A DNA stretch of 64,000 nt. It comes from Bacteroidota bacterium (GTDB lineage: Bacteria; Bacteroidota; Bacteroidia; B-17B0; Aurantibacillaceae). Below are positions 2,476 to 21,506 of the stretch, in pieces. The notes below the pieces were generated by a model. It was not told where the DNA came from. It worked only from the letters and a program-made list of their open reading frames with translations, and made no database searches. The stretch lies in contig JAFDXR010000009.1 of the NCBI GenBank assembly GCA_018267825.1, forward strand, positions 62,001 through 126,000. The letters run 5' to 3'. The first letter of the stretch is position 1. Every line of letters begins with the position of its first letter. Position numbers and translations under genes: made by a program.

Positions 2476-3540
2476 ATGGGCAACGAAAAAAGCCGGTCAT
2501 ATAGCATCTTACTCATTTCAGCACACCTGCTGTTCTGGATCGCCATTTACTTTGTGCCTTTTATTGTAAATCCGCGTGGTCCGGGGCATCCCCATGGGGT
2601 TCTGGATCCCAGGCTTATCATCAATCAGCTCCTGCTTATTTTCCTGTTTTATTTCAACAGCCAGTATCTGCTCCGCGGCTTTTACCGCAAATATGGTGTT
2701 ACACTCTACATCATCGGATTCACAGTATGCCTTGTTGTGGTGATCGGTATTTCGGCCCTGGGTCATGTGCCGCCAGGCCAGGGACCGCCGCCTGCCGACA
2801 TGCCTATGCCACCCGGTCCGCCACGCGACCCGCCTTTGCTGCCGGCTTCCTTTATTTTAATGGCTGGCTTAATCGGGGCCATCAGTATTATTTACAGGCT
2901 CATTGCCGACAGGCAGGAAGAGGAGCGCCTGCGCAAGGAAAAAGAAACACAGAATCTGCAGGCCGAGTTGTCTTTTCTGCGCTCACAGATCAACCCGCAT
3001 TTTATTTTCAATGCCCTCAACGGCACGCTCTCACTCATTCTCAAGAAGTCGGATAAAGCGGCCGACAGCCTGCTCAAGCTCTCAAACCTGATGCGTTATA
3101 TGCTGTATGAATCAGATGCAGACAAGGTTTTGCTGAACAATGAAATAGAGTATGTAAACGATTACATCGATCTGCAGACCCTTCGCTTTGGTAATACCAT
3201 TAAGATAGTGCGCGAGTTTGATACAGAGCTCCCTCTGGGCAAACAGATAGAGCCGATGCTCATTATTCCTTTTATTGAAAACGCCTTTAAACACGGTGCC
3301 GTGATGGTGGAGCAGCCCGAAATCAGGATCCGCCTAAGTGTGATCGATGAAACACTGCTTCTGCTTGTCGACAATAAATTTAATCCCGGCTCCAAAGAAG
3401 TGAAAGACAGGAATTCGGGGATTGGTCTGGTGAATGTGCGCCGGCGACTGGAGCTCCTGTACCCCGGCCGGCATGAACTGACGATAGGGGCCAGTGAAAA
3501 TTGGTATAAAATCGTTTTAAAGATTAATTTAGCAGTATGA
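2476..3540 (+). CDS. LytS/YehU-type sensor histidine kinase
   Basis: The 354-residue kinase has four predicted N-terminal membrane helices (about residues 10-30, 50-68, 75-95 and 122-142) and a His_kinase (PF06580) domain. The motif QINPHFIFNALN places the phospho-acceptor at H175. The ATPase part contains an IENAFKHG N-box near residue 265 and glycine-rich GIGLVNVRRRL near 315. The periplasmic loop before the last helix is very rich in proline and glycine (about residues 98-118). The stop overlaps the start of the LytTR regulator by 4 nt (ATGA), so the pair is translationally coupled. A TATATTTG element at 2461-2468 sits just before the start codon. The signal is unknown. Confidence 0.92.
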   Translation: MGNEKSRSYSILLISAHLLFWIAIYFVPFIVNPRGPGHPHGVLDPRLIINQLLLIFLFYFNSQYLLRGFYRKYGVTLYIIGFTVCLVVVIGISALGHVPPGQGPPPADMPMPPGPPRDPPLLPASFILMAGLIGAISIIYRLIADRQEEERLRKEKETQNLQAELSFLRSQINPHFIFNALNGTLSLILKKSDKAADSLLKLSNLMRYMLYESDADKVLLNNEIEYVNDYIDLQTLRFGNTIKIVREFDTELPLGKQIEPMLIIPFIENAFKHGAVMVEQPEIRIRLSVIDETLLLLVDNKFNPGSKEVKDRNSGIGLVNVRRRLELLYPGRHELTIGASENWYKIVLKINLAV

Positions 3541-4265
3541 TGAATTGCATCGCTGTGGATGATGAACCGCTCGCCCTTGATCTGATGACCACATACATCA
3601 GGCAGGTACCGGGCCTTCATCTGGTTAAGACCTGTTCCAATGCCGTAGAGGCTATGGAAGTGATGCACCAGGAACACATCGATCTTATTTTTCTGGATAT
3701 CCAGATGCCAGGTCTCACAGGTCTGCAGTTTGTACAGTCGCTCAAACAGAAACCCTTTGTTGTATTTACCACCGCCTACACCAAATACGCCCTGGATGGC
3801 TATGAACTGGATGTGCTCGACTACCTTGTGAAACCCTTTTCATTTGAGCGTTTCCTGAAATGTGTGAACAAAGCCACCGAAGCTCATAAACTCCTTACAT
3901 CGTCTACACCCTCGTCGCTCAAGGCACTGCCGCCCGACTACCTCTTTGTAAATGCCGACTACAGCCTCGTGAAAATAAATATCAGCGACATTGCCTATGT
4001 GGAAGGCCTCAAAGATTACATCAAAATTTTTACGAGTGGCAACAACAAAGCCGTAGTCACACGCATGAGCATGAAAGCCATCGAGGAACGCCTGCTGCTC
4101 ATGGGTTTCCGCAGGATTCATAAATCGCATATTGTGAACCTGAGTAAGATTAGTTCCATCAAGAAAAGCCGTGTGGTGATCGATGGTGTGGAGCTTACCG
4201 TGGGCGACAGCTATCGCAGCGGACTCTTCAAAAGCCTCGGACTCGATATCCCGGAATCCGAATAA
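3537..4265 (+). CDS. LytTR-family response regulator
   Basis: The 242-residue protein has a receiver domain (residues 1-120) with acidic pocket residues DDE near position 10, phospho-acceptor D54 in FLDIQMPG, a conserved T near 82 and K near 103 (VKPF). A LytTR DNA-binding domain follows from about residue 135 to 235, recognisable by YVEGLKDYIKI and FRRIHKSHIVN. It partners with the kinase whose gene it overlaps by 4 nt. LytTR regulators usually bind paired direct repeats at promoters. The next operon, at 4459, starts 193 bp downstream and could be a target, but I saw no clear paired repeat there. Confidence 0.93.
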   Translation: MMNCIAVDDEPLALDLMTTYIRQVPGLHLVKTCSNAVEAMEVMHQEHIDLIFLDIQMPGLTGLQFVQSLKQKPFVVFTTAYTKYALDGYELDVLDYLVKPFSFERFLKCVNKATEAHKLLTSSTPSSLKALPPDYLFVNADYSLVKINISDIAYVEGLKDYIKIFTSGNNKAVVTRMSMKAIEERLLLMGFRRIHKSHIVNLSKISSIKKSRVVIDGVELTVGDSYRSGLFKSLGLDIPESE

Positions 4266-4458: not shown

Positions 4459-5088
4459 ATGAAAATCGTAAAACACCTCAAACAGACAATACTCACCGGA
4501 GCTGTGGTATGTCTTCCATTTTTTGCCTTATCTCAAAACGATCCTCTGGTGCAGGCCTTCTCCAAAAGCTACCAGTATGAGAAGAGCTATGATTACACCA
4601 ATGCCATCAATTCACTCAAGACTGTTTACAATACCGCGTCTTATGAGCTGAACCTCCGCCTGGGTTACCTGAGCTACATGGCGGGTTTCCACAAAGAATC
4701 CATGGCGTATTATAAAGTGGCCATCGAACTCAATCCGAAAGCCGTGGAGCCTCGCTTCGGTTATGTATATCCGGCAGCAGCCCTGGGCCTCACCGATGAA
4801 CTGGTAACACAGTATACAGCCATTCTCCAGATCGATCCGCAGAATACCCTGGCTCTGTACCGCATGGGATATATTTATTTTCTGCGCAAAGATTTCCCGG
4901 CGGCCAAAACATATCTCGGCAAACTCGTGAGTCTCTATCCCTTTTCTTACGACGGCCTTATACTTTACGCCAAGACCGAACAGCAGCTGGGCGAGAAAGC
5001 AGAGGCTCTCAACCTGTTTAACCGCGTACTCCTGCTGTCACCTACCGATAAAGAGGCCAATGAAGCCGTGAAGCAGCTCAAACAGTAA
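4459..5088 (+). CDS. Secreted TPR protein, first gene of the PqqD/ATP-grasp cluster
   Basis: This 209-residue protein has a signal peptide (residues 1-25, ending in ALSQ), then tandem tetratricopeptide repeats over the rest. The LGYLSYMAGFHKESMAYYKVAIELNPKA-type spacing of A, Y and P is typical for TPR. It is probably periplasmic and serves as a protein-interaction scaffold. It leads a run of six same-strand genes with gaps of 42 bp or less, so it is likely part of the same unit as the downstream PqqD-like, ATP-grasp and PLP genes. It has no catalytic motif. Confidence 0.75.
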   Translation: MKIVKHLKQTILTGAVVCLPFFALSQNDPLVQAFSKSYQYEKSYDYTNAINSLKTVYNTASYELNLRLGYLSYMAGFHKESMAYYKVAIELNPKAVEPRFGYVYPAAALGLTDELVTQYTAILQIDPQNTLALYRMGYIYFLRKDFPAAKTYLGKLVSLYPFSYDGLILYAKTEQQLGEKAEALNLFNRVLLLSPTDKEANEAVKQLKQ

Positions 5089-5130
5089 TCCGTTTTTTTC
5101 GAACCGACTAACCCATTAAAAGCTTTCATT

Positions 5131-5376
5131 ATGAAAATCAATTCAAACTTAGCCATCAGCGACACAGGATTTATTTTTAATCCATCCAATGGCGACTCGT
5201 TTTCTACCAATGCACTTGGTGCCGATATTATCCGCCTGATGAAAGAAGGCAAAAAAACCGCCGACATCAAAAAAGCCATTTGCGAAAAATACGAGGTAGA
5301 TCCAAAAGTACTCGATAAAGACTACGACGATTTTATGTCTCATTTACGCGATCATTTTTTAGTAAGCCATGACTAG
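5131..5376 (+). CDS. PqqD-like protein (RRE fold)
   Basis: This 81-residue protein matches the PqqD family: an N-terminal beta hairpin (ISDTGFIFNPSNGDSFSTN), then a helical part with ALGADIIRLMKEGK and a winged-helix tail ending in DFMSHLRDHFLV. PqqD proteins are RiPP recognition elements that bind a peptide or carrier substrate and present it to a modifying enzyme. Here it overlaps the ATP-grasp gene by 8 nt, so the ATP-grasp enzyme is the obvious partner. No precursor-peptide gene is visible next to it. The substrate might lie elsewhere, or this copy might bind something other than a peptide. Confidence 0.78.
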   Translation: MKINSNLAISDTGFIFNPSNGDSFSTNALGADIIRLMKEGKKTADIKKAICEKYEVDPKVLDKDYDDFMSHLRDHFLVSHD

Positions 5377-6424
5377 TTCAAGTAAACCCAAAATTACGGT
5401 GGCTGTCACCGGCTTAAACGCAGTAGACAGCCCCGGACCGGGAGTTGCCGTGATACGGGGCATCAGAGATTGTGAAGATTTCGATGTCCGCATCATAGGC
5501 CTCTCCTACGAATCACTTGAACCCGGTATTTATATGCCGGGTATTGCTGATAAGGTATACCAGATTCCTTATCCGGCCGCGGGCACCGAAGCACTTCTGA
5601 ACCGCATCGAATACATTCACGACATCGAAAAACTGGATGTGATCATTCCGAACTTTGATGCAGAGCTACATAACTTCATTAAGCTGTCTTCACGACTCAA
5701 GGCCATGGGGATTCACACCTTCCTGCCAAGCATCGAACAGTTCGAGTCGCGCGATAAAGTGAACCTCTTTGAGTTTGGTAAAAAACACGGCATGCTGGTG
5801 CCCCGCGATAAAACCATTTACGATGTGGGTGAGCTCAACCAGATTACCAAAGATTTCGAATACCCCATTGTGGTGAAAGGCAAATACTACGAAGCTACAG
5901 TAGCCTATACGCTGGAGCAGGCGCAGAAAGCCTTTCATAAGCTCAATGCCAAATGGGGTCTTCCGGTGATTGTGCAGGAGTTTATTCAGGGTACCGAAGT
6001 AAACATTGCCGCACTGGGCGACGGACAGGGAAATACGATCAGTGCCATTCCGATGCGCAAACTGTTTATTACCGACAAGGGAAAAGCCTGGGCAGGCATT
6101 ACACTCGAGGACAAAACCCTGATCGACCTGGCGGAGAAATTTATCAGCGCCACGAAATGGCGCGGAGGTTTCGAGCTCGAGATCATGCGCACCACAGATG
6201 GCAAACCCTACATCATGGAAGTAAATCCACGCTTCCCGGCATGGATCTATCTCACTACCGGTGCCGGACAAAACCAACCGGCAGCCCTCGTGAAAATGGC
6301 CATGGGCGAAACGGTGAAGCCCTATACCACCTATGCAGTCGGAAAAATTTTTGTGCGTTATGCCTGGGACCAGATTACCGACGTATCGGAGTTCCAGAAA
6401 ATATCGGCCTTTGGTGAACTATAA
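5369..6424 (+). CDS. ATP-grasp ligase (CarB/biotin-carboxylase-like)
   Basis: The 351-residue enzyme has an N-terminal pre-ATP-grasp Rossmann-like part (residues 8-115; the start VTGLNAVDSPGPGVAVIRG could hold a nucleotide-like ligand) and an ATP-grasp domain at about 118-310. Visible features are VVKGKYYEA near 171, a metal-binding E284 and N286 in MEVNPRFPAW, and QEFIQGTEVNI near 205. ATP-grasp enzymes join a carboxylate to an amine or thiol through an acyl phosphate. The gene starts inside the PqqD-like gene and is followed after about 20 bp by a PLP enzyme, which suggests stepwise synthesis of an amide or a modified peptide. The substrate is unknown. Confidence 0.85.
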   Translation: MTSSSKPKITVAVTGLNAVDSPGPGVAVIRGIRDCEDFDVRIIGLSYESLEPGIYMPGIADKVYQIPYPAAGTEALLNRIEYIHDIEKLDVIIPNFDAELHNFIKLSSRLKAMGIHTFLPSIEQFESRDKVNLFEFGKKHGMLVPRDKTIYDVGELNQITKDFEYPIVVKGKYYEATVAYTLEQAQKAFHKLNAKWGLPVIVQEFIQGTEVNIAALGDGQGNTISAIPMRKLFITDKGKAWAGITLEDKTLIDLAEKFISATKWRGGFELEIMRTTDGKPYIMEVNPRFPAWIYLTTGAGQNQPAALVKMAMGETVKPYTTYAVGKIFVRYAWDQITDVSEFQKISAFGEL

Positions 6425-6444
6425 CCCCTTAAAAAACATTGTAT

Positions 6445-7812
6445 ATGAAAACGGAAAAATTAAAATATGAACGCCCGGCTATCCGCAAACTGAATACCGG
6501 CCTGATGAATAAATTTGGTACACGCACGGAATACGCGCCGGTGACACACATCGATGGTGTTTCGGTTCGCGAACTGATCAGTAAATACGGCTCACCTTGT
6601 TTTGTATTGTCGGAGCGCACCATCCGCAAAACCTACCAGAATGCCGTACGTGCCTTTAAAACACGTTACCCGAAAGTGCAATTTGCCTGGAGCTATAAAA
6701 CCAATTATATTGATGCTGTGTGTAACGTGTTTCACCAGGAAGGCTCCTGGGCCGAGGTGGTGTCTATTTTCGAATACACCAAGGCGCTGAACAATGGCGT
6801 ACCGGGCAACAAAATTATTTTCAACGGCCCCGAAAAGAGCAAAGACGATATGAAGCTGGCCATCGAAAATAATTCCTTCCTGCACATTGATCACTTTGAT
6901 GAACTGTACGACCTCATTGAACTGACCGAAACAATGAAGAAAAAAGCAAAGGTGGCCATTCGTGTCAACATGGATACCGGCGTATACCCGATGTGGGATC
7001 GCTTCGGCTTTAACTACGAATCGGGGCAGGCCTGGAATGCCATCACCAAGATTATGGCTACAGAATACCTCGACCTTGTGGGACTTCATTGCCACATCGG
7101 TACATTTATGCTTACCACAAGTGCTTATGCTGTGGCTGCTGCCAAGCTTTCTGACCTGGCGGTGAATATCAAATACAGTTACAACAAAGTGCTTCAGTAC
7201 CTCGATCTCGGCGGTGGATTCCCTTCCGGTAATACACTGCGCGGTTCATATCTGCCGGGTACCGATGTGATTCCATCCATCGATGAGTTTGCAGAAGCGA
7301 TTACATCCACCATTCTGAATTACGGTTACAAAAAAGATGAACTGCCTTTGCTGATCCTGGAAACCGGACGTGCACTCATCGACGATGCCGGCTATTTACT
7401 CGGTAGCGTGATTGCCAACAAACGTCTGAGCGATGGACGCCGCGCCACCATCATGGATTTCGGGGTTAATATTCTGTTCACCGCATTCTGGTACGAACAT
7501 AAAATTACGCCGGCTCAGGAGTTTTCGAGTCACACCGAAGATATGGTACTTTACGGACCGCTTTGTATGAACATAGATGTGGTGCGCCAGAGTGTGAACC
7601 TGCCGATGCTCAATAAGGGCGATCATGTGGTGGTACATAAAGTCGGAGCCTATAACATGACGCAGTGGATGCAGTTCATTGCCATGCGACCTAAAGTGGT
7701 GCTGATTGATACCGAAGGCAATGCTCATGTAATCCGCGAAAATGAAACCGTGGAAACACTCACGGTGATGGAGAGAAAACCGGAACACCTGAAAACGTTT
7801 AAGCTAGCCTGA
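6445..7812 (+). CDS. Fold-type III PLP-dependent decarboxylase-like enzyme
   Basis: The protein (455 residues from the ATG at 6445; an in-frame TTG at 6439 would add two) resembles diaminopimelate, ornithine or arginine decarboxylases. The PLP lysine is K85 in SYKTN, H215 and H217 lie in GLHCHIGT, a glycine-rich phosphate loop LDLGGGFPSG follows near 250, E306-x-G-R309 is the ETGRAL motif, and the active-site cysteine C374 lies in GPLCMNID. The C-terminal substrate-specificity segment (AYNMTQWMQF) is unlike that of LysA (SNYNSRPR type), so the substrate is probably not diaminopimelate. It follows the ATP-grasp gene by 20 bp and precedes the transporter fusion by 9 bp. Confidence 0.85.
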   Translation: MKTEKLKYERPAIRKLNTGLMNKFGTRTEYAPVTHIDGVSVRELISKYGSPCFVLSERTIRKTYQNAVRAFKTRYPKVQFAWSYKTNYIDAVCNVFHQEGSWAEVVSIFEYTKALNNGVPGNKIIFNGPEKSKDDMKLAIENNSFLHIDHFDELYDLIELTETMKKKAKVAIRVNMDTGVYPMWDRFGFNYESGQAWNAITKIMATEYLDLVGLHCHIGTFMLTTSAYAVAAAKLSDLAVNIKYSYNKVLQYLDLGGGFPSGNTLRGSYLPGTDVIPSIDEFAEAITSTILNYGYKKDELPLLILETGRALIDDAGYLLGSVIANKRLSDGRRATIMDFGVNILFTAFWYEHKITPAQEFSSHTEDMVLYGPLCMNIDVVRQSVNLPMLNKGDHVVVHKVGAYNMTQWMQFIAMRPKVVLIDTEGNAHVIRENETVETLTVMERKPEHLKTFKLA

Positions 7813-7821
7813 TTGTAATTT

Positions 7822-10029
7822 ATGACGGATCATAGCCTGTCATACACAAAACCACAGTATTGGCTGCGTAGCACAGTGAACAGCTATGCTGTGGTTTTTT
7901 TCTCCACCAACCCATGGTTCGGGGCCCTGCTCATCCTGGCCTCTTTTGTAAACCCCATGGCGGGGCTCTGCGGATTGCTCGGTACCCTGCTGGCCAATGC
8001 TTTTGCAACAGTCATCGGGCTGAATCAGGAACATGTTTACAAAGGCTATTACGGATACGATGCCATGCTTGTAGCCTGTGCACTCGGAACCTTTTACCAG
8101 GTGAACGCCATTTTGCTCGTACTCATTGTATGTGTGGCCATGCTCGCCGTTTTCCTGTCGCAGGCCATCAGTGGCATTATGCATAAGTATCAGCTGCCTG
8201 CCCTGAGTTTTCCGTTTCTGCTTACCATCTGGCTGGTGTTGCTGGCCATCGCCTCTGTTTCGGGAGTAGAAGTTATTGCGTTTCGCAGTTCCCTTGCACA
8301 TGCCGCCTTCGGCCTGCCACCCATGACCTGGGAAGCACTGGTGAACAGCCTCGATTCCTGGCAAATTCCTGCCCTGGTGAAAGTGTATTTCAAATCACTG
8401 TCTGCCTTGTTCTTTCAATCCAATGTGCTCAGCGGTGTGTTGATTACAGTGGGACTCCTGGCTTATTCGCGCATTGCATTTTCATTGTCTGTTGTTGGCT
8501 ACATGGCAGCATATTATTTTTACGGTCTGTTAGGTGGAAGTACTTCCGATTTTTACGAAAATTTCATCGGGCTCAATTTTATTTTCCAGGCTATTGCCAT
8601 CGGTGGGTTCTTCCTCGTTCCCTCACTTTACAGTTACCTGGCAACTATTGTGCTCACGCCGGTTTTAATCATTGTGGTATTTGCCTGCAATAAACTCATG
8701 GGTAATTTCGGGCTTCTCTCATATTCACTGCCATTCACAATCGTGACTATTCTGTTCTTGTATCTTCTCAAATTCAGAACGCATATCCGTTACTTACATC
8801 TGGTAAGCTATCAGACATTCAGTCCGGAACAAAATCTGTACAATTACCTGGATGCGAATTTGCGGATGCGTCTGTACCAGTTCTTCCCGGTGCATCTGCC
8901 TTTCTGGGGTGAGTGGATGGTGTCGCAGGCTCACGATGGAAAAATAACACACCTCGGACAGTGGAGCAAAGCTTTCGATTTTATTATCCTCGATGATGAA
9001 ATGAAATCGTACCGCAACCCGGGCTTGGCACTCAATGATTTCTATTGCTATGATAAACCGGTAGTAGCCTGCGGAGACGGCTATGTGGTGGCACTCGAAG
9101 ATAAAATTGATGACAACCTGGTGAATGATGTGAACACCATTCAGAACTGGGGAAATACCATTGTAATCAAACATACCGAAGGCCTCTTCAGTCAGCTGAG
9201 CCACCTCAAAAAAGATTCACTGAAAGTGAAGGTAGGCGATTATGTACGTCGCGGTGATCTGATCGCCCTCTGCGGAAATTCAGGACGTTCGCCGGAACCG
9301 CATATTCATTTTCAGATGCAGGCACAACCTGCTATTGGTTCCCCCACACTCGATTACCCGCTGGCATACTATATGGTGAAACACAGCGGTCGTTGGGAAT
9401 TAAAAACCTACGATAAACCCACCGAAGGACAAAGTATCAGCAGTGTGCAAACAAACACATTGCTGAAATCGGCGTTTAACCTCACACCGGGAACCCGGTT
9501 GAAATTTGTTGTGAAAGAAGAGGGCAGGGCTGAGAGTGAAACAGACTGGGAAGTATTTACCGACAGTTACAATTATTCGTATCTCTATTGCCATCAAAGC
9601 AAAGCCATTGCTTATTTCTACAACGACGGGAACCTCTTTTATTTTACAAATTACATCGGCGATACCGAAGCTCTGCTTTATTATTTCTACCTCGCACATT
9701 ACAAAGTGCTCCTCGGGTATTACCACGGTCTGCAGATCCGGGAGACATACCCTTCTGCCACGATCCGCCGGGGACTGCTGAGTTTTGTGCAGGATTTTAT
9801 CACGCCGTTTTACCGCCTCGTTCATACGGAGTACAGCATCCGTTATGTATCTATCGACGATGAAAATATAAGCTCTGAAATAAAGCTGGAGTCGGAGGCT
9901 GAGATCCGCGCTGTGGGTTTATCGCGTAAAGCCCTGGTGTTTCAGACCACATTGCGCGATCACAAAATTTCGGAATTTCAGATCCGTTTAAACCAACGAA
10001 AAATAACGGCCTTATGCGTCAATACCTGA
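7822..10029 (+). CDS. Urea-transporter domain fused to M23 metallopeptidase
   Basis: This 735-residue fusion has an N-terminal urea-transporter (PF03253-like) membrane domain, about residues 20-325, with repeated motifs such as GLYGYDAML-like YYGYDAMLVACALGTF. A LytM/M23 zinc-peptidase domain follows at about 365-500. Its ligands look intact: H377 and D386 (THLGQWSKAFDF), H461 (LSHL), and H494-I-H496. A further 215 residues of unrecognised sequence close the protein. M23 domains cut peptidoglycan cross-links or sense lysostaphin-like substrates; the transporter would move urea or a similar small amide. The downstream barrel gene overlaps by 16 nt. No frameshift separates the domains, so this is a true fusion. 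Confidence 0.87.
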   Translation: MTDHSLSYTKPQYWLRSTVNSYAVVFFSTNPWFGALLILASFVNPMAGLCGLLGTLLANAFATVIGLNQEHVYKGYYGYDAMLVACALGTFYQVNAILLVLIVCVAMLAVFLSQAISGIMHKYQLPALSFPFLLTIWLVLLAIASVSGVEVIAFRSSLAHAAFGLPPMTWEALVNSLDSWQIPALVKVYFKSLSALFFQSNVLSGVLITVGLLAYSRIAFSLSVVGYMAAYYFYGLLGGSTSDFYENFIGLNFIFQAIAIGGFFLVPSLYSYLATIVLTPVLIIVVFACNKLMGNFGLLSYSLPFTIVTILFLYLLKFRTHIRYLHLVSYQTFSPEQNLYNYLDANLRMRLYQFFPVHLPFWGEWMVSQAHDGKITHLGQWSKAFDFIILDDEMKSYRNPGLALNDFYCYDKPVVACGDGYVVALEDKIDDNLVNDVNTIQNWGNTIVIKHTEGLFSQLSHLKKDSLKVKVGDYVRRGDLIALCGNSGRSPEPHIHFQMQAQPAIGSPTLDYPLAYYMVKHSGRWELKTYDKPTEGQSISSVQTNTLLKSAFNLTPGTRLKFVVKEEGRAESETDWEVFTDSYNYSYLYCHQSKAIAYFYNDGNLFYFTNYIGDTEALLYYFYLAHYKVLLGYYHGLQIRETYPSATIRRGLLSFVQDFITPFYRLVHTEYSIRYVSIDDENISSEIKLESEAEIRAVGLSRKALVFQTTLRDHKISEFQIRLNQRKITALCVNT

Positions 10030-11342
10030 TAGTCCTTCTGTCTGTTTTGTGTAGCTTCATGTTGCGCTCACAATCGCTCATGACGCCGTCGAAAACGGAT
10101 AGCATATCCTATAGCCTCTACCTACAGGGCGATCACGCCTCTCATGAGCAACTCACCCATGAGGCACTGGAGCAGCATATCGATTTTTATTACCTGAGAA
10201 TACGGGCTGGTCTGCTCGACTATGGAGCGAAGAAATATTTCCTGGCGAGGAAACACCTCGAGCGGGCCTTGTTTTATTACCCGGCCGATACCATGGCCCA
10301 GGAATATCTGTTTTACACGTACCTCTACCTGGGCCGAAATCAGGATGCCGAAGAGCTCTATACTAAATTCTCGCCTGAGATGCGCCGGAAACTCGAGGCA
10401 TACCGTCCGCTGAATAATGCTGCCTATATAGAGGCCGGCTATTTTACAAGTAATGCTGCTTCTGTAGTTCCGGTCAATGAAATTCATGGTAAGCCACCGG
10501 TTATTTATTCCGAAGCCGATCATTCAAAAAATATCCAGTACTACCAGCTTGGTCTGAACACAAACTACACGAAAAAAACCTCGCTGTATTTTGGTTTTAC
10601 TTACCTGAACCTCTCCAAGGAAAAAGTGGCCTACTGGGGACCGCGCGATACAGCCAGCGATTACCATTACCACCAGTTTGAATATTACCTGGGGCTGAAT
10701 CACAATATGAAAAATGACTGGCAATTCCAGGCAGCTTTTCACTACCTCGATTATAAGTCGACGGTGATGTATTCGAAAAATGATACTGCAGCCAAAACAT
10801 TTAAGTTTTATAACACCGATGTGAAACAAAATAATGTGGTACTGAATGCAGGGCTCTCCAAAGAGATCAGGGGCTTTCTGAAACCCGCGCTAGACCTGTC
10901 TTACAGCAGCCTCAATAAAACGAACATTCTGCAGCTGAGCGGCAGGATCACCTATTACCTCACCGGTAATAAACACTTGTACGGGATGACAGGATATGCC
11001 ATGGGCTTTGATACCAGTGGCAGCCGTTGGGTATTTATGCAAAAAATAGGAGGAAGATTAGCACCTAAGCTTTGGCTCGAATGTTACGGCTATTTTGGAA
11101 ACCTCACCAACTTCAATGATGCCAATGCATTTCTGGTGTACAACGTGTCTGATAAAATAACCGGTAAATACGGGGCCTCCCTTTCGATATTGGCGACACA
11201 TCACCTGGATATTTCCATGCGTTATGATTTCATTATGCGCGAAGGTTCTTACGAGCAGATCAGTAAACCAAATAGCATACGAACCGTCAATTATAATTAC
11301 AATAACCAGGCTGTGATCGGCAGTATCCGCTGGAAATTCTGA
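10014..11342 (+). CDS. YaiO-like outer-membrane beta-barrel with N-terminal TPRs
   Basis: The 442-residue protein has a signal peptide (residues 1-20, LRSQS), a helical TPR-like region (about 35-125), then alternating hydrophobic beta strands to a terminal WKF, the aromatic end that outer-membrane barrels use for assembly. Such architecture fits the YaiO family. It overlaps the transporter/peptidase gene by 16 nt and ends 9 bp from a convergent gene. As last gene of the run it may provide the outer-membrane exit or anchor of the cluster; that is inference from position. Confidence 0.82.
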   Translation: MRQYLIVLLSVLCSFMLRSQSLMTPSKTDSISYSLYLQGDHASHEQLTHEALEQHIDFYYLRIRAGLLDYGAKKYFLARKHLERALFYYPADTMAQEYLFYTYLYLGRNQDAEELYTKFSPEMRRKLEAYRPLNNAAYIEAGYFTSNAASVVPVNEIHGKPPVIYSEADHSKNIQYYQLGLNTNYTKKTSLYFGFTYLNLSKEKVAYWGPRDTASDYHYHQFEYYLGLNHNMKNDWQFQAAFHYLDYKSTVMYSKNDTAAKTFKFYNTDVKQNNVVLNAGLSKEIRGFLKPALDLSYSSLNKTNILQLSGRITYYLTGNKHLYGMTGYAMGFDTSGSRWVFMQKIGGRLAPKLWLECYGYFGNLTNFNDANAFLVYNVSDKITGKYGASLSILATHHLDISMRYDFIMREGSYEQISKPNSIRTVNYNYNNQAVIGSIRWKF

Positions 11343-11351
11343 CGATGTTGC

Positions 11352-13751
11352 TTAAACACGGATGCCGATAACGGTAACGTCATCTACCTGCTCCAGTTTC
11401 CCGCGCCAGTTTTCGAAAGTTTCGTTCAGAATCCGGTTTTGTTCGGCAAGTGATTCCTGGCTGTGCTTCATGAGCAATTCTTCCAGCGGCTTGTATTTGA
11501 ATTTTTTTCCTCTTGGTCCGCCAAACTGATCGGCATAACCATCGCTCATGGTTACCACGAGATCGCCCGGCTGAAGCGCGATGGAGTATTGTTTGAATGG
11601 TTTGAGCTCCGTGCCGAAAATGCCCACTGGTTGTTTCTCACCGCGGTGCTCCGTAAGTACAATGCCATCCGCCGTTTTCCGGATCACACAGGCGTGATGG
11701 TTCGCTGCAGCATAGTTTAACTCCATAGTCTCACGATCAAGCACGCAAATAATCATGTCCATACCATCCTGGTTTTCGCCGGAAATACCTTTTTGTTTGA
11801 GTGCCGAAATTACTTTTTTACGCAGGCGGCTCAGGATCAGAGCTGGCTCTGTAAGGCTGTGCTCATTAATGATCTCACTTAAAAAAGATACGCCGAGCAT
11901 ACTCATGAACCCTCCCGGAACCCCATGTCCTGTGCAATCGGCCGTCACATAAATAACCTTGCCTTCTTTTTCCGTGATCCAGAAAAAATCACCGCTGATA
12001 ATATCCTTGGGTTTGAATAATACAAAAGCATCTTTGAAATACCCTGCAAACTCAGATTCCGTAGGCATCATCGCTGTTTGGATATTATAGGCGTATTTAA
12101 TGCTGTCGGTTATTTCCTGGTTCTTCAGGTGAATGATCTGGTTCTTCTGTTCGATCGTATGGTTCTTGTCATTGAGCTCCGAATTTTTTTCGGAGAGGCT
12201 GTTGTATGCTTTGGCGAGGCTTTGTTGCGATTCTGTTTTGAGTTTGTACTGGCGGAGAGCGATTATTAAAATGATGAGTAATATAATAATGGCGGCCCAT
12301 GAAATGCCGGTGATGCGTTTCTGGAGCCTGCTCTCCTGTTCTGCAGCCAGCCTGGTTTCTTCCTGCCTCAGTTTTTCCATGGCTTCTTTGCGTGCAAACA
12401 CATATTCCATTTCCTTGCGAGTGATCTCTTTCGTTTTTTCGATATTATAAATGCTGTCACGAAGGCTGATGAATTTTTTATAGTGATACAAAGCCTTATC
12501 AGGCTTGCCATTGACTGTATAAAGTTCACTGAGAATTTCATGCGCATCTTTCAGCAGTGTCGGCAAATGAAGTGCTTCGCTGTTGCTCAGGCCCCCTGTG
12601 GCATACACAAGCGATTCCCCCGGACGTTTATCTTTCAGGAGAATAGTGGCTTTTACAAGCATGGCACTGGTCTGACCTTCTTTGTCGCCAATGGTCTGGT
12701 TTATGGAAATACTTGTATCGATGTGCGCCAGGGCATCTTTCAGGTTATTGGTATTCAGGTATACGCGGGCAATGTTTTCGTGCACATGCGCTACGCGGTT
12801 TTTAATATTGATTTGTTTGCTGATGGCAAGGGCCCTGAAATGATATTCGAGTGCCAGTTTATATTCGCCCCGGTTCTGGTAGAGCTGGCCAATATTGGTC
12901 AGACGCCCCGAAACGCACTGCATGTCTTTCAGATCATCGCATATATCCAGGCTTTTGAGCTCTGACTGCAGGGCTTTGTCATACTCACCCATTTCATAAT
13001 AGAGCTTGTAGAGATTCAGGTACGAATTGGCGAGGCCGCGTTTGTCCTGGATCCGTTCACGAATCCCGATGCTGGTCTGCAACTGGCTGATGCCTTCCGA
13101 GTAGTTTCCGAGATGCGATTGATTGAGCCCGATGAACGAGTGGCAGGCTGCAATCCCCGCTTCATCGTAAAGTTCTTCTTTCAAACGAAGGCTTTTATTC
13201 GCCAGTTCGTTTCCTTTTTCATAAAGGCCACGGTCGCTATATGTCGAACCGGAAATATAGTAAGCCGTTGACAGCCCATAGAGATCTTTGGTTTTCTCAG
13301 CGGTTTCAATGGCCCGGCCAAGCGTTTTATCTGCTTCATCAAAGTGGTTCAGAGCAGCCAGTGCCTTGGCTTTTGTATTCAGTGCCCGAATACTGAATCC
13401 GTTTGTTTCTTTGATAATTCCCAATGCCGAGTCACAAAGAGAAATGGATAGATCGTATTTACTTTCATTATAAAGGATGTGCGCTTCGTAATTTAAAAGT
13501 GCCGCATAAAAAAGCGTATTGTTTTTGTGCTGCGATTTCAATTGAGCAATATGGACTTTGGCAGCTGGATAATTGCCATGCATCATACTGTCATATACTT
13601 CGCGCAGCGACTGTCTTGATACTTCGTCCGGAAATACCTGATTAATCAGGTATTTTACTTCTGCAGGGGGCCAGGCAGCCTGGGCAGAGATACATCGTGC
13701 GCCCATGATCAAAAAAAACAGGAATAGTATGTGCCTCCCAGGGTATTTCAT
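11352..13751 (-). CDS. TPR sensor with SpoIIE-type PP2C phosphatase
   Basis: This 799-residue protein has a signal peptide (1-23), about seven periplasmic TPRs (roughly 60-440), one membrane helix near 484-504, a coiled coil (510-560) and a cytosolic SpoIIE/PP2C phosphatase domain (about 580-799). Metal-binding acidic residues are visible in SGDFFW and TADCTGHGVPGGFMSM, and a second GDLVVTMSDGYADQFGG motif sits near the end. Such proteins dephosphorylate anti-anti-sigma or other serine-phosphoproteins in response to an envelope signal. Two other SpoIIE proteins occur in this window (32968 and 49760). It is convergent with the YaiO-like gene, 9 bp away. Confidence 0.9.
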   Translation of the reverse strand: MKYPGRHILFLFFLIMGARCISAQAAWPPAEVKYLINQVFPDEVSRQSLREVYDSMMHGNYPAAKVHIAQLKSQHKNNTLFYAALLNYEAHILYNESKYDLSISLCDSALGIIKETNGFSIRALNTKAKALAALNHFDEADKTLGRAIETAEKTKDLYGLSTAYYISGSTYSDRGLYEKGNELANKSLRLKEELYDEAGIAACHSFIGLNQSHLGNYSEGISQLQTSIGIRERIQDKRGLANSYLNLYKLYYEMGEYDKALQSELKSLDICDDLKDMQCVSGRLTNIGQLYQNRGEYKLALEYHFRALAISKQINIKNRVAHVHENIARVYLNTNNLKDALAHIDTSISINQTIGDKEGQTSAMLVKATILLKDKRPGESLVYATGGLSNSEALHLPTLLKDAHEILSELYTVNGKPDKALYHYKKFISLRDSIYNIEKTKEITRKEMEYVFARKEAMEKLRQEETRLAAEQESRLQKRITGISWAAIIILLIILIIALRQYKLKTESQQSLAKAYNSLSEKNSELNDKNHTIEQKNQIIHLKNQEITDSIKYAYNIQTAMMPTESEFAGYFKDAFVLFKPKDIISGDFFWITEKEGKVIYVTADCTGHGVPGGFMSMLGVSFLSEIINEHSLTEPALILSRLRKKVISALKQKGISGENQDGMDMIICVLDRETMELNYAAANHHACVIRKTADGIVLTEHRGEKQPVGIFGTELKPFKQYSIALQPGDLVVTMSDGYADQFGGPRGKKFKYKPLEELLMKHSQESLAEQNRILNETFENWRGKLEQVDDVTVIGIRV

Positions 13752-19838: not shown

Positions 19839-21506
19839 TTAAAAAAGAGTGATTCTAACCCGGCTATTCACACGCATTTTTATTTTGGCTTCTTCCTCTG
19901 TCGCGTCCATGAGCCACAAAACATCAGCCGGGTGAGCCAGTGCAGGGAACCAGGGCTGGGGCAAATGGTCCAGAATGTTCTCTATGCTGTGGTTAAGTCC
20001 CGGCACATCGGTCCGACCGGTCGAAACACTATCGATATGACCATTGCTATATACAATAAATGACAGTTTTATTTTTTGCAGGTTTGTGTTCTTGTATTCC
20101 GCTCGCTGCTTCAATGAATCTTCAATCAATGCCTTCAGGTAAGCCATACTGGCTTCATGGGTTTTGAATTGTTTAATATCATATACAGCCTGATTGGTCA
20201 GTGTTTTTGGGAACCGTGGCGACCAGTATTCCATTTTGTGGGTCTGCTTTCTGTATTTTTGTCCCTTGAACGGAAAGCTTTCGGCTGCTTTGCTTTTATC
20301 GCAGATCGCCCATGAAATGACCGGCTCAAGGGATTTGTCGGCATACTGACGAATACCCATGAAGCCACTGCAGGCTTCAATATTCATACTCCGGTTTTTA
20401 AAATAATCGTTCCAGGTGATATCAATTTTAGAAATGCCTCCCGGAATATTATCTGTTGAGAGATTCGATAAACAATAACTGTCCCGGTGTACAAATGGGT
20501 TTGGCACAAAGGTCTCCTTATACTTTGATGTGCCGGTTGTTTCATCATAATCCCCGTCAGGCTCCATTTTTTTGATGTAAGGAAATAATTTCAGACACCA
20601 GCCCGAGATAAAAAAGTTATTGTATTCAGAGATGCTCTTGTATATTGATTGCCAGAAAACGGGATCAGGACTTCCTTCATATACCTTTATGAACTCAAGG
20701 ATGACAGGCCTCAGATCATCTGCCCAGTCTTTCATGCCGAACTGCTCCAGAAGTTGCAATCTGTTATAGAGGTTTTGCCAGTCGGCTTTATTGCCCTTTA
20801 ATTTAATGACGGGAATCCCGCATCCTGATTCCCCCACATATTGAAAGCCTTTTTTATAGCTCTCCAGCATACATATGTTGTAAGCGGTTTTTTCGACCGG
20901 ACCACTGGTGCTGAACCCACCCGAAAAAAAGAGTCTCGCATTGTTCGTAGTGTAGACATCTGCCTGCGCCGATATGCTGTCGATCAGGGCCTGCCAGGCA
21001 TGTTCACCGAACTGTAAACTGTCATTGCGAACGACCAGTCTGTCGGGTTTGCCTTTTTTCAGTAAGCTTGATTTTAACGTGGCGAAGTGCTGATTGATAT
21101 GAATGGAAACACCCTGGCAAATGGTTAGCCACAATACATCCGGGCTTAATGTCAGGGGCCGGTGATCGTTATAGCAGAATTGAAGTGTTTGCAAAAAGGC
21201 ATTGTTGTATGTGCCGATCAGTTTTTGATGCCTGTGCTCAGCTGGCATGTAGAGAATCTGGTAGCTTAGTTTGTTTGAAAAAACACGGTAAGATGAATCG
21301 GTGTTAAGCAGGTATGAGGCAGGCACGACATCTGAAACGTGAAAACTAACGGAATCTGTTTGTTGGTTTTCATCAACCGGCGTAACGGCTGACGTGTCTG
21401 TTTTTTGCGGTGGTTTTTGTGTTTCATGAGCAGTTTCTTTGTGCTGATCATGACATGCACTCAGCAGAAAGAGGGATGCTACAGAGAACAAAAGAATACG
21501 GCGCAT
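19839..21506 (-). CDS. DUF4419-containing lipoprotein
   Basis: The 555-residue protein starts with a lipoprotein signal (LLSAC, cysteine at about 18), then a Thr/Gln-rich linker to residue 50. The main body contains the DUF4419 hallmark pattern, for example LTLSPDVLWLTICQGVSIHINQ at about 119-140, GW and SGFMGI motifs near 385. A C-terminal stretch (about 455-540) looks TonB-C-like (IKLSFIVYSNGHIDSV). The function of DUF4419 is not known to me. It follows a WYL regulator by 16 bp, which may control it. Confidence 0.72.
   Translation of the reverse strand: MRRILLFSVASLFLLSACHDQHKETAHETQKPPQKTDTSAVTPVDENQQTDSVSFHVSDVVPASYLLNTDSSYRVFSNKLSYQILYMPAEHRHQKLIGTYNNAFLQTLQFCYNDHRPLTLSPDVLWLTICQGVSIHINQHFATLKSSLLKKGKPDRLVVRNDSLQFGEHAWQALIDSISAQADVYTTNNARLFFSGGFSTSGPVEKTAYNICMLESYKKGFQYVGESGCGIPVIKLKGNKADWQNLYNRLQLLEQFGMKDWADDLRPVILEFIKVYEGSPDPVFWQSIYKSISEYNNFFISGWCLKLFPYIKKMEPDGDYDETTGTSKYKETFVPNPFVHRDSYCLSNLSTDNIPGGISKIDITWNDYFKNRSMNIEACSGFMGIRQYADKSLEPVISWAICDKSKAAESFPFKGQKYRKQTHKMEYWSPRFPKTLTNQAVYDIKQFKTHEASMAYLKALIEDSLKQRAEYKNTNLQKIKLSFIVYSNGHIDSVSTGRTDVPGLNHSIENILDHLPQPWFPALAHPADVLWLMDATEEEAKIKMRVNSRVRITLF

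Follow-up and report, generated by a model that had tools for sequence, protein, structure and literature searches.

The six-gene operon described here lies at positions 4459-11342 of a 64,000-nucleotide stretch (hereafter the window) of a Bacteroidota genome of the family Aurantibacillaceae (assembly GCA_018267825.1, contig JAFDXR010000009.1, positions 62,001 to 126,000 of the forward strand). All six plus-strand open reading frames (ORFs), here named A to F (Table 1), were present at the coordinates given in a preliminary description of this DNA, which was also right about their small gaps and overlaps. A and B are separated by 42 bp, B and C overlap by 8 nt, D and E are 9 bp apart, and E and F overlap by 16 nt; the gap between C and D is 14 bp if D starts at TTG 6439 and 20 bp if it starts at ATG 6445, which is probably the true start. 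Proteins of the window were assigned to families with Pfam and NCBIfam models, and these upheld the earlier labels for A (tetratricopeptide repeat, TPR), B (PqqD), C (ATP-grasp), D (a pyridoxal 5'-phosphate (PLP) enzyme), and E (a fusion of a urea transporter, UT, and an M23 peptidase).

Table 1. The operon, its domains, and the adjoining regulatory genes (positions in the window)
Feature	Positions	Strand	Length	Evidence or remark
LytS-type histidine kinase (upstream two-component pair)	2476-3540	+		His_kinase (Pfam 1.5e-24)
LytTR response regulator (upstream two-component pair)	3537-4265	+		Response_reg + LytTR
A: TPR protein, signal-peptide-like N-terminus	4459..5088	+	209 aa	TPR models
B: PqqD-family recognition element, lasso-peptide B1 type	5131..5376	+	81 aa	PqqD 6.9e-12
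C: ATP-grasp carboxylate-amine ligase-like	5369..6424	+	351 aa	ATPgrasp_Ter 1.4e-12, ATP-grasp_3 1.7e-10
D: alanine-racemase-fold (fold III) PLP decarboxylase	6445..7812	+	455 aa from ATG	Orn_Arg_deC_N + C-terminal sheet domain
D N-terminal tail, residues 1-30	6445..6534	+		leader-like YERPAI at 6466-6483, then NKFG block
E: urea-channel domain + M23 metallopeptidase + C-terminal beta-rich domain	7822..10029	+	735 aa	Pfam UT + Peptidase_M23
E UT channel domain, residues 16-316	7867..8769	+		PF03253 8.6e-57
E M23 domain, residues 353-517	8878..9372	+		predicted cytosolic
E C-terminal beta-rich domain, residues 531-735	9412..10026	+		confident in AlphaFold2 (AF2) model
F: secreted TPR protein, probable C-terminal outer-membrane barrel	10014..11342	+	442 aa	

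The six genes are a real conserved system of two modules, B-C-D and E-F-A. Of 296 genomes sampled evenly across the phylum, 27 have both D and E and the rest have neither; none of the 27 carries X, the fold-I decarboxylase of a second form of the locus (form 2, see below). Such complete agreement between D and E has a probability of ~1e-38 under independence, a figure that ignores shared ancestry. Among 150 relatives, E was full length or nearly so in 37, and D occurred in 23 of these versus none of the 113 genomes without E. The remaining 14 E genomes carry X, and the two decarboxylases were never found together (0/37). The preliminary description had proposed a search for co-occurrence of the gene families, and these counts bear out its picture of a synthesis core plus an envelope part as a real co-occurring set. 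We found no account of the gene set in open-licence papers (most subscription journals and preprints lay outside the search), in line with the earlier remark that no described pathway has these genes, and with this reservation the system appears to be undescribed so far.

Gene order was mapped at 40 genome loci, at 80 named loci, and in additional deep relatives; the usual arrangement is B-C-D-E-F-A, with B-C, C-D, and E-F spacings that are mostly overlaps or tens of bases. The layout of the window, with A first, is unusual; elsewhere A lies mostly 3' of F. B is present at every locus with a contig covering C plus its upstream side, except that it was not picked at one (L169). Four genomes have E-F-A without D nearby, and their D is located elsewhere, adjoining B and C. 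Another (L109) has E-F-A alone, with the form-2 residue in the pore of E, and X with the adjacent gene Y was then found elsewhere in that genome. Because the modules are unlinked in some genomes yet both are kept, their association is more than operon hitch-hiking. D and X were both not found in two further genomes with neither pair near E (small assemblies of 1.9 and 2.7 Mb). Two adjacent ORFs take the place of a single E gene at L173, where the break is close to the UT/M23 boundary, and at L068; they may encode separate chains or mark a broken gene. In some Bacteroidales (L092, L102, L113, and L121) a protein of 302-318 aa, resembling an eIF2B/MtnA-type isomerase by eye, is encoded between D and E.

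B is a recognition element for ribosomally synthesized and post-translationally modified peptides (RiPPs), i.e., an RRE, and among solved structures it is closest to the lasso RREs TbiB1 (5v1u/5v1v, 1.7e-7) and TfuB1 (6jx3). Lasso B1 proteins depend on leader residues Tyr(-17), Pro(-14), and Leu(-12) (PMC10368454), and the wider lasso leader motif is YxxPxLxxxG (PMC6856326). The corresponding pattern [YF]xxPx[ILV] occurs within the first 60 residues of D itself in 91/91 homologues, which span several classes of the phylum; in most of them a conserved NKFG-type block comes next. Conservation of tail residues 8-27 equals that of the catalytic core, with a mean majority-residue fraction of 0.78 in both. 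The predicted local distance difference test score (pLDDT) of the AF2 model is <50 for residues 1-27, and the core is confident from about residue 31-35, which is also where the alignments of most solved relatives begin. The conserved yet predictedly disordered tail looks like a docking motif, and B may bind it. No precursor peptide was conserved among 778 small ORFs in 63 loci, where the motif hits were the D tail on a broken frame and one unconserved chance match. An exact YERPxIxK-encoding site occurs once in the whole genome, in D (exact matches only; looser motifs were outside the genome-wide search), and neither a lasso B2 protease nor an asparagine-synthase-like cyclase was matched by any of the six genes. 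The locus therefore has the PqqD/RRE domain expected of an RRE-dependent RiPP system and no detected precursor gene.

D fits the alanine-racemase-fold decarboxylases by fold and PLP-site residues. Its closest solved sequence is N-citrylornithine decarboxylase (7kh2, 1.5e-72), followed by diaminopimelate (DAP) decarboxylase, and its structure gave Z scores of 40.8 to the DAP decarboxylase of M. jannaschii (1twi) and 39.7 to 7kh2, about 1 Z apart. The PLP-site residues K87, R175, H219, GGG258-260, R311, and C376 are invariant, as in FigC, and the Cys-Met step agrees with FslC, whereas DAP decarboxylase has Cys-Glu. An assignment of D as LysA was rejected, with 220 bits against a cut-off of 298, with Cys-Met instead of Cys-Glu, and because the same genome holds a separate lysA-like gene directly after an aspartokinase-like ORF. 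D also falls short of the model for FslC/FigC N-citrylornithine decarboxylases (232 bits versus a cut-off of 500), and no operon gene matched Pfam or NCBIfam models of NIS synthetases, an ATP-grasp being present instead. FigC has been grouped with conjugated-amino-acid decarboxylases including BtrK, which acts on carrier-tethered glutamate (PMC7857480); BtrK is a relative of D in our sequence comparison. C has a mean column identity of 68% and scored 29 bits against the cut-off of 1027 for CarB, the large subunit of carbamoyl-phosphate synthetase. Housekeeping LysA- and CarB-type proteins with independent neighbours, which the preliminary description had named as grounds for giving up the idea of a system, are thus not what lies here, as the scores fall below the cut-offs and the gene set co-occurs.

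E combines a full-length urea-channel fold with a metallopeptidase domain. The Pfam UT and M23 domains were found in 32/32 members, and the AF2 model has a pLDDT of 91. Residues 3-347 match urea channels (Z 36.9 over 316 residues), and residues ~353-517 match M23/LytM domains (Z ~14), the structural matches being peptidoglycan hydrolases; His377, Asp386, His461, His494, and His496 of the M23 domain are invariant in 78/78. The C-terminal domain had no Pfam match above cut-off, and no structure match aligned to this domain alone. Negative charges are found in the 144-183 and 237-249 loops; the N-terminus, the loop at 66-77, and the linker on the C-terminal side carry positive ones. Urea channels have this charge pattern, with both termini in the cytosol (N-in/C-in). 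No extra transmembrane helix is present in the model, and the M23 domain is accordingly predicted from loop charge bias and UT homology to be cytosolic. The pore has changed: the position of Glu187 of the urea transporter dvUT is Ala, Gly, or Ser in a hidden Markov model alignment, and that of Gln24 is Gln in most form-1 proteins (those of loci with C and D), Val in the E of the window, and Leu in 14/14 form-2 proteins. E therefore has the UT fold of a urea transporter and lacks the Gln24/Glu187 pair of its pore (dvUT numbering). Urease was found in 1/150 relatives, a genome without E.

A and F complete the envelope module and have signal-peptide-like N-termini. F itself has a weak TPR match only; among its 45 relatives, TPR models are common, and OMP_b-brl, BBP2_2, DUF2490, or OMP_TP0733 match only a few. 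The earlier label of F as a YaiO barrel was dropped, as no YaiO model matched in F or the 45 relatives (46 members). F ends in ...IRWKF and has a probable C-terminal outer-membrane barrel.

The form-2 loci offer a natural replacement of the synthesis genes. There, the neighbours of E-A-F encode a divergent VOC-like protein, X (~913 aa, OKR_DC fold), and Y (~490 aa, a PRK06524-type ATP-grasp). X belongs to the Rv2531c family of M. tuberculosis (882 bits over 890 positions to 9n0o), the cryo-electron microscopy structure of which is known and the activity unassigned even in that organism (PMC12910592). Form-2 E proteins are a single clade nested among form-1 E proteins (SH-aLRT support of 93 from a quick tree method), and the change at the pore mouth falls at about the same point of the tree as the change of enzyme pair. 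Apparently, on one occasion, an unrelated pair of broadly similar type took over from the ligase/decarboxylase pair C-D. Such a one-time swap beside the same envelope genes is most simply read as meaning that the envelope module requires the product of a ligase-decarboxylase pair. X also occurs in genomes without E, where X and Y stood with GABA-transaminase-, succinate-semialdehyde dehydrogenase (SSADH)-, and C-N-hydrolase-like genes in 4/5 loci read; these neighbours hint at amine or amide chemistry. A conserved X/Y operon with those genes, and in most cases a C45 hydrolase, was seen at L163, L165, L166, and L167, which have no UT-M23 gene. This operon is a candidate amine or amide catabolic pathway and may reveal the substrate of the Rv2531c family.

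We favour, at somewhat less than even confidence, a system in which one module synthesizes a small amide- or amine-type metabolite and the other transports it, with B docking D to C through the D tail. The first module would be cytosolic, C joining a carboxylate to an amine and D decarboxylating the amide conjugate, while B would grip the leader-like tail of D and dock it to C with no peptide presented. The second would form the envelope part. The cytosolic M23 domain of E would hydrolyse the conjugate, for example freeing the product, the repurposed UT pore would let the small product across the inner membrane, and F with the secreted TPR protein A may carry it across the outer membrane or anchor there. 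In the form-2 clade, the unrelated decarboxylase and ATP-grasp ligase stand in place of the first module, and the pore mouth differs. With slightly greater reserve, we consider it possible that an RRE has been repurposed to dock a metabolic enzyme or guide its modification, together with a UT-M23 channel-hydrolase that releases and moves a previously unknown metabolite and with replacement of the enzyme pair in one lineage. Several observations weigh against the favoured scheme. The tail motif is short, and its presence in 91/91 homologues reflects common descent as well as constraint; moreover, the tail Gly lies two residues later than the lasso spacing would place it. To our knowledge, almost all M23 domains hydrolyse peptidoglycan outside the cytoplasm, and the topology of E is predicted only from charge bias and homology. 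The divergence of F prevents a firm identification of the barrel, and X is also present in genomes without E, its activity being unassigned even in M. tuberculosis.

Urea assimilation, a RiPP pathway, or a role at the cell wall would each be a less probable explanation. A RiPP pathway, in which B would recruit a precursor encoded elsewhere, C and D would modify it, M23 would cleave the leader, and F would export the product, has in its favour that the sequence of B is that of a genuine RRE, that ATP-grasp ligases make graspetides (PMC8939145), and that an M23 peptidase could serve as leader peptidase. We nevertheless regard it as unlikely, since the only motif-bearing small ORFs in the 63 loci were the D tail and the chance match, the exact motif is encoded once in the genome, and form 2 retains E-F-A without any RRE. 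The modified peptide suggested in the preliminary description loses ground for the same reasons, the leader motif being on the decarboxylase itself, and the short precursor ORFs it had proposed to look for in syntenic copies were not conserved at any of these loci. Alternatively, the D tail could itself be a carrier: with guidance from B, C would load it with an amino acid (e.g., at the invariant Lys of NKFG), and D would decarboxylate the tethered residue, as in BtrJ/BtrK/BtrI or LysX/LysW. The presence of an invariant Lys and an invariant Gly in the disordered tail and the kinship of D with BtrK, which decarboxylates glutamate tethered to a carrier protein (PMC7857480), suit this idea; no enzyme tail is known to act so, however, and form 2 lacks such a tail, which leaves the idea improbable.

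The placement of the M23 domain bears on a cell-wall system, in which M23 would act in the periplasm to remodel peptidoglycan, a ligand from C and D would gate it, and A and F would be its partners in the envelope. The invariant zinc residues of M23, its structural matches among peptidoglycan hydrolases, and the signal-peptide-like N-termini of A and F would all fit. UT homology and loop charges nonetheless place the C-terminal side in the cytosol, the model has no extra transmembrane helix, and we therefore hold such a role to be doubtful; the action at the cell wall raised in the preliminary description is likewise not borne out by the N-in/C-in charge bias. Uptake of urea for nitrogen appears very improbable. 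The UT domain is full length and close in fold to urea channels, but the only relative with urease among the 150 is not an E genome (urea carboxylase was outside the search), the dvUT pore Glu is lost, and the Gln position varies by form.

The two-component pair upstream is likely the regulator of the operon. In the closest relatives a LytTR gene immediately precedes B, and this place is taken elsewhere by hybrid kinases, HMA-AraC regulators, or sigma/anti-sigma genes; because the type of regulator varies, no single inducing signal can be read from it. An AraC-type regulator of 200 aa, HMA-like in its N-terminal region, is encoded directly upstream of B at about a dozen loci, including L044, L047, L052, L094, L131, L141, and L147, which hints that metals or thiols are sensed. 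The window also has, shortly before the regulators (115-1874), a bacterial bestrophin beside an LCIB-type carbonic anhydrase, possibly a pair for bicarbonate/CO2 handling. On the minus strand, a TPR protein fused to a SpoIIE-type phosphatase (11352-13751) is convergent with F, and a DUF4419 protein is encoded at 19839-21506.

If the favoured interpretation is true, RREs are general protein-docking modules whose use extends beyond peptide presentation, and RRE-based genome mining misses enzyme clients and mistakes loci of this kind for orphan RiPPs. The system would further represent an offshoot of the urea channels with a fused cytosolic hydrolase and open a tractable route to a previously unknown metabolite, carried by ~9% of the even phylum sample. 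Two enzyme pairs that replace one another offer independent ways into the chemistry and are relevant to the unassigned Rv2531c family.

Parts of the system resemble several characterized ones. B is closest in the PDB to the lasso RRE B1 proteins TbiB1 and TfuB1, and the D motif keeps the Tyr/Pro/aliphatic spacing of YxxPxL; unlike in lasso systems, the motif is on the N-terminus of an enzyme, no precursor was found, and none of the six genes matched a lasso cyclase or B2 protease. With FslC/FigC, which act with FslA in rhizoferrin synthesis, D shares the fold, catalytic residues, and Cys-Met step, and the operon would share the logic of ligation followed by decarboxylation; however, D is below the FslC cut-off and has a leader-like tail, the ligase is an ATP-grasp and not an NIS synthetase, and an envelope module is present here. 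Butirosin synthesis likewise combines an ATP-grasp (BtrJ) with an alanine-racemase-fold decarboxylase (BtrK) acting on a protected amino acid, with an acyl-carrier protein where this operon has an RRE. E shares the full fold and N-in/C-in charge pattern of bacterial urea transporters (dvUT, 3k3f) but has altered pore residues and fused M23 and C-terminal domains, and no urease was found in the E genomes tested. The Rv2531c-family decarboxylase and PRK06524 ATP-grasp differ from C-D in that the decarboxylase fold is unrelated to D and the pair also occurs without E, beside GABA-transaminase/SSADH-like genes, yet they stand in for C-D beside the same envelope genes.

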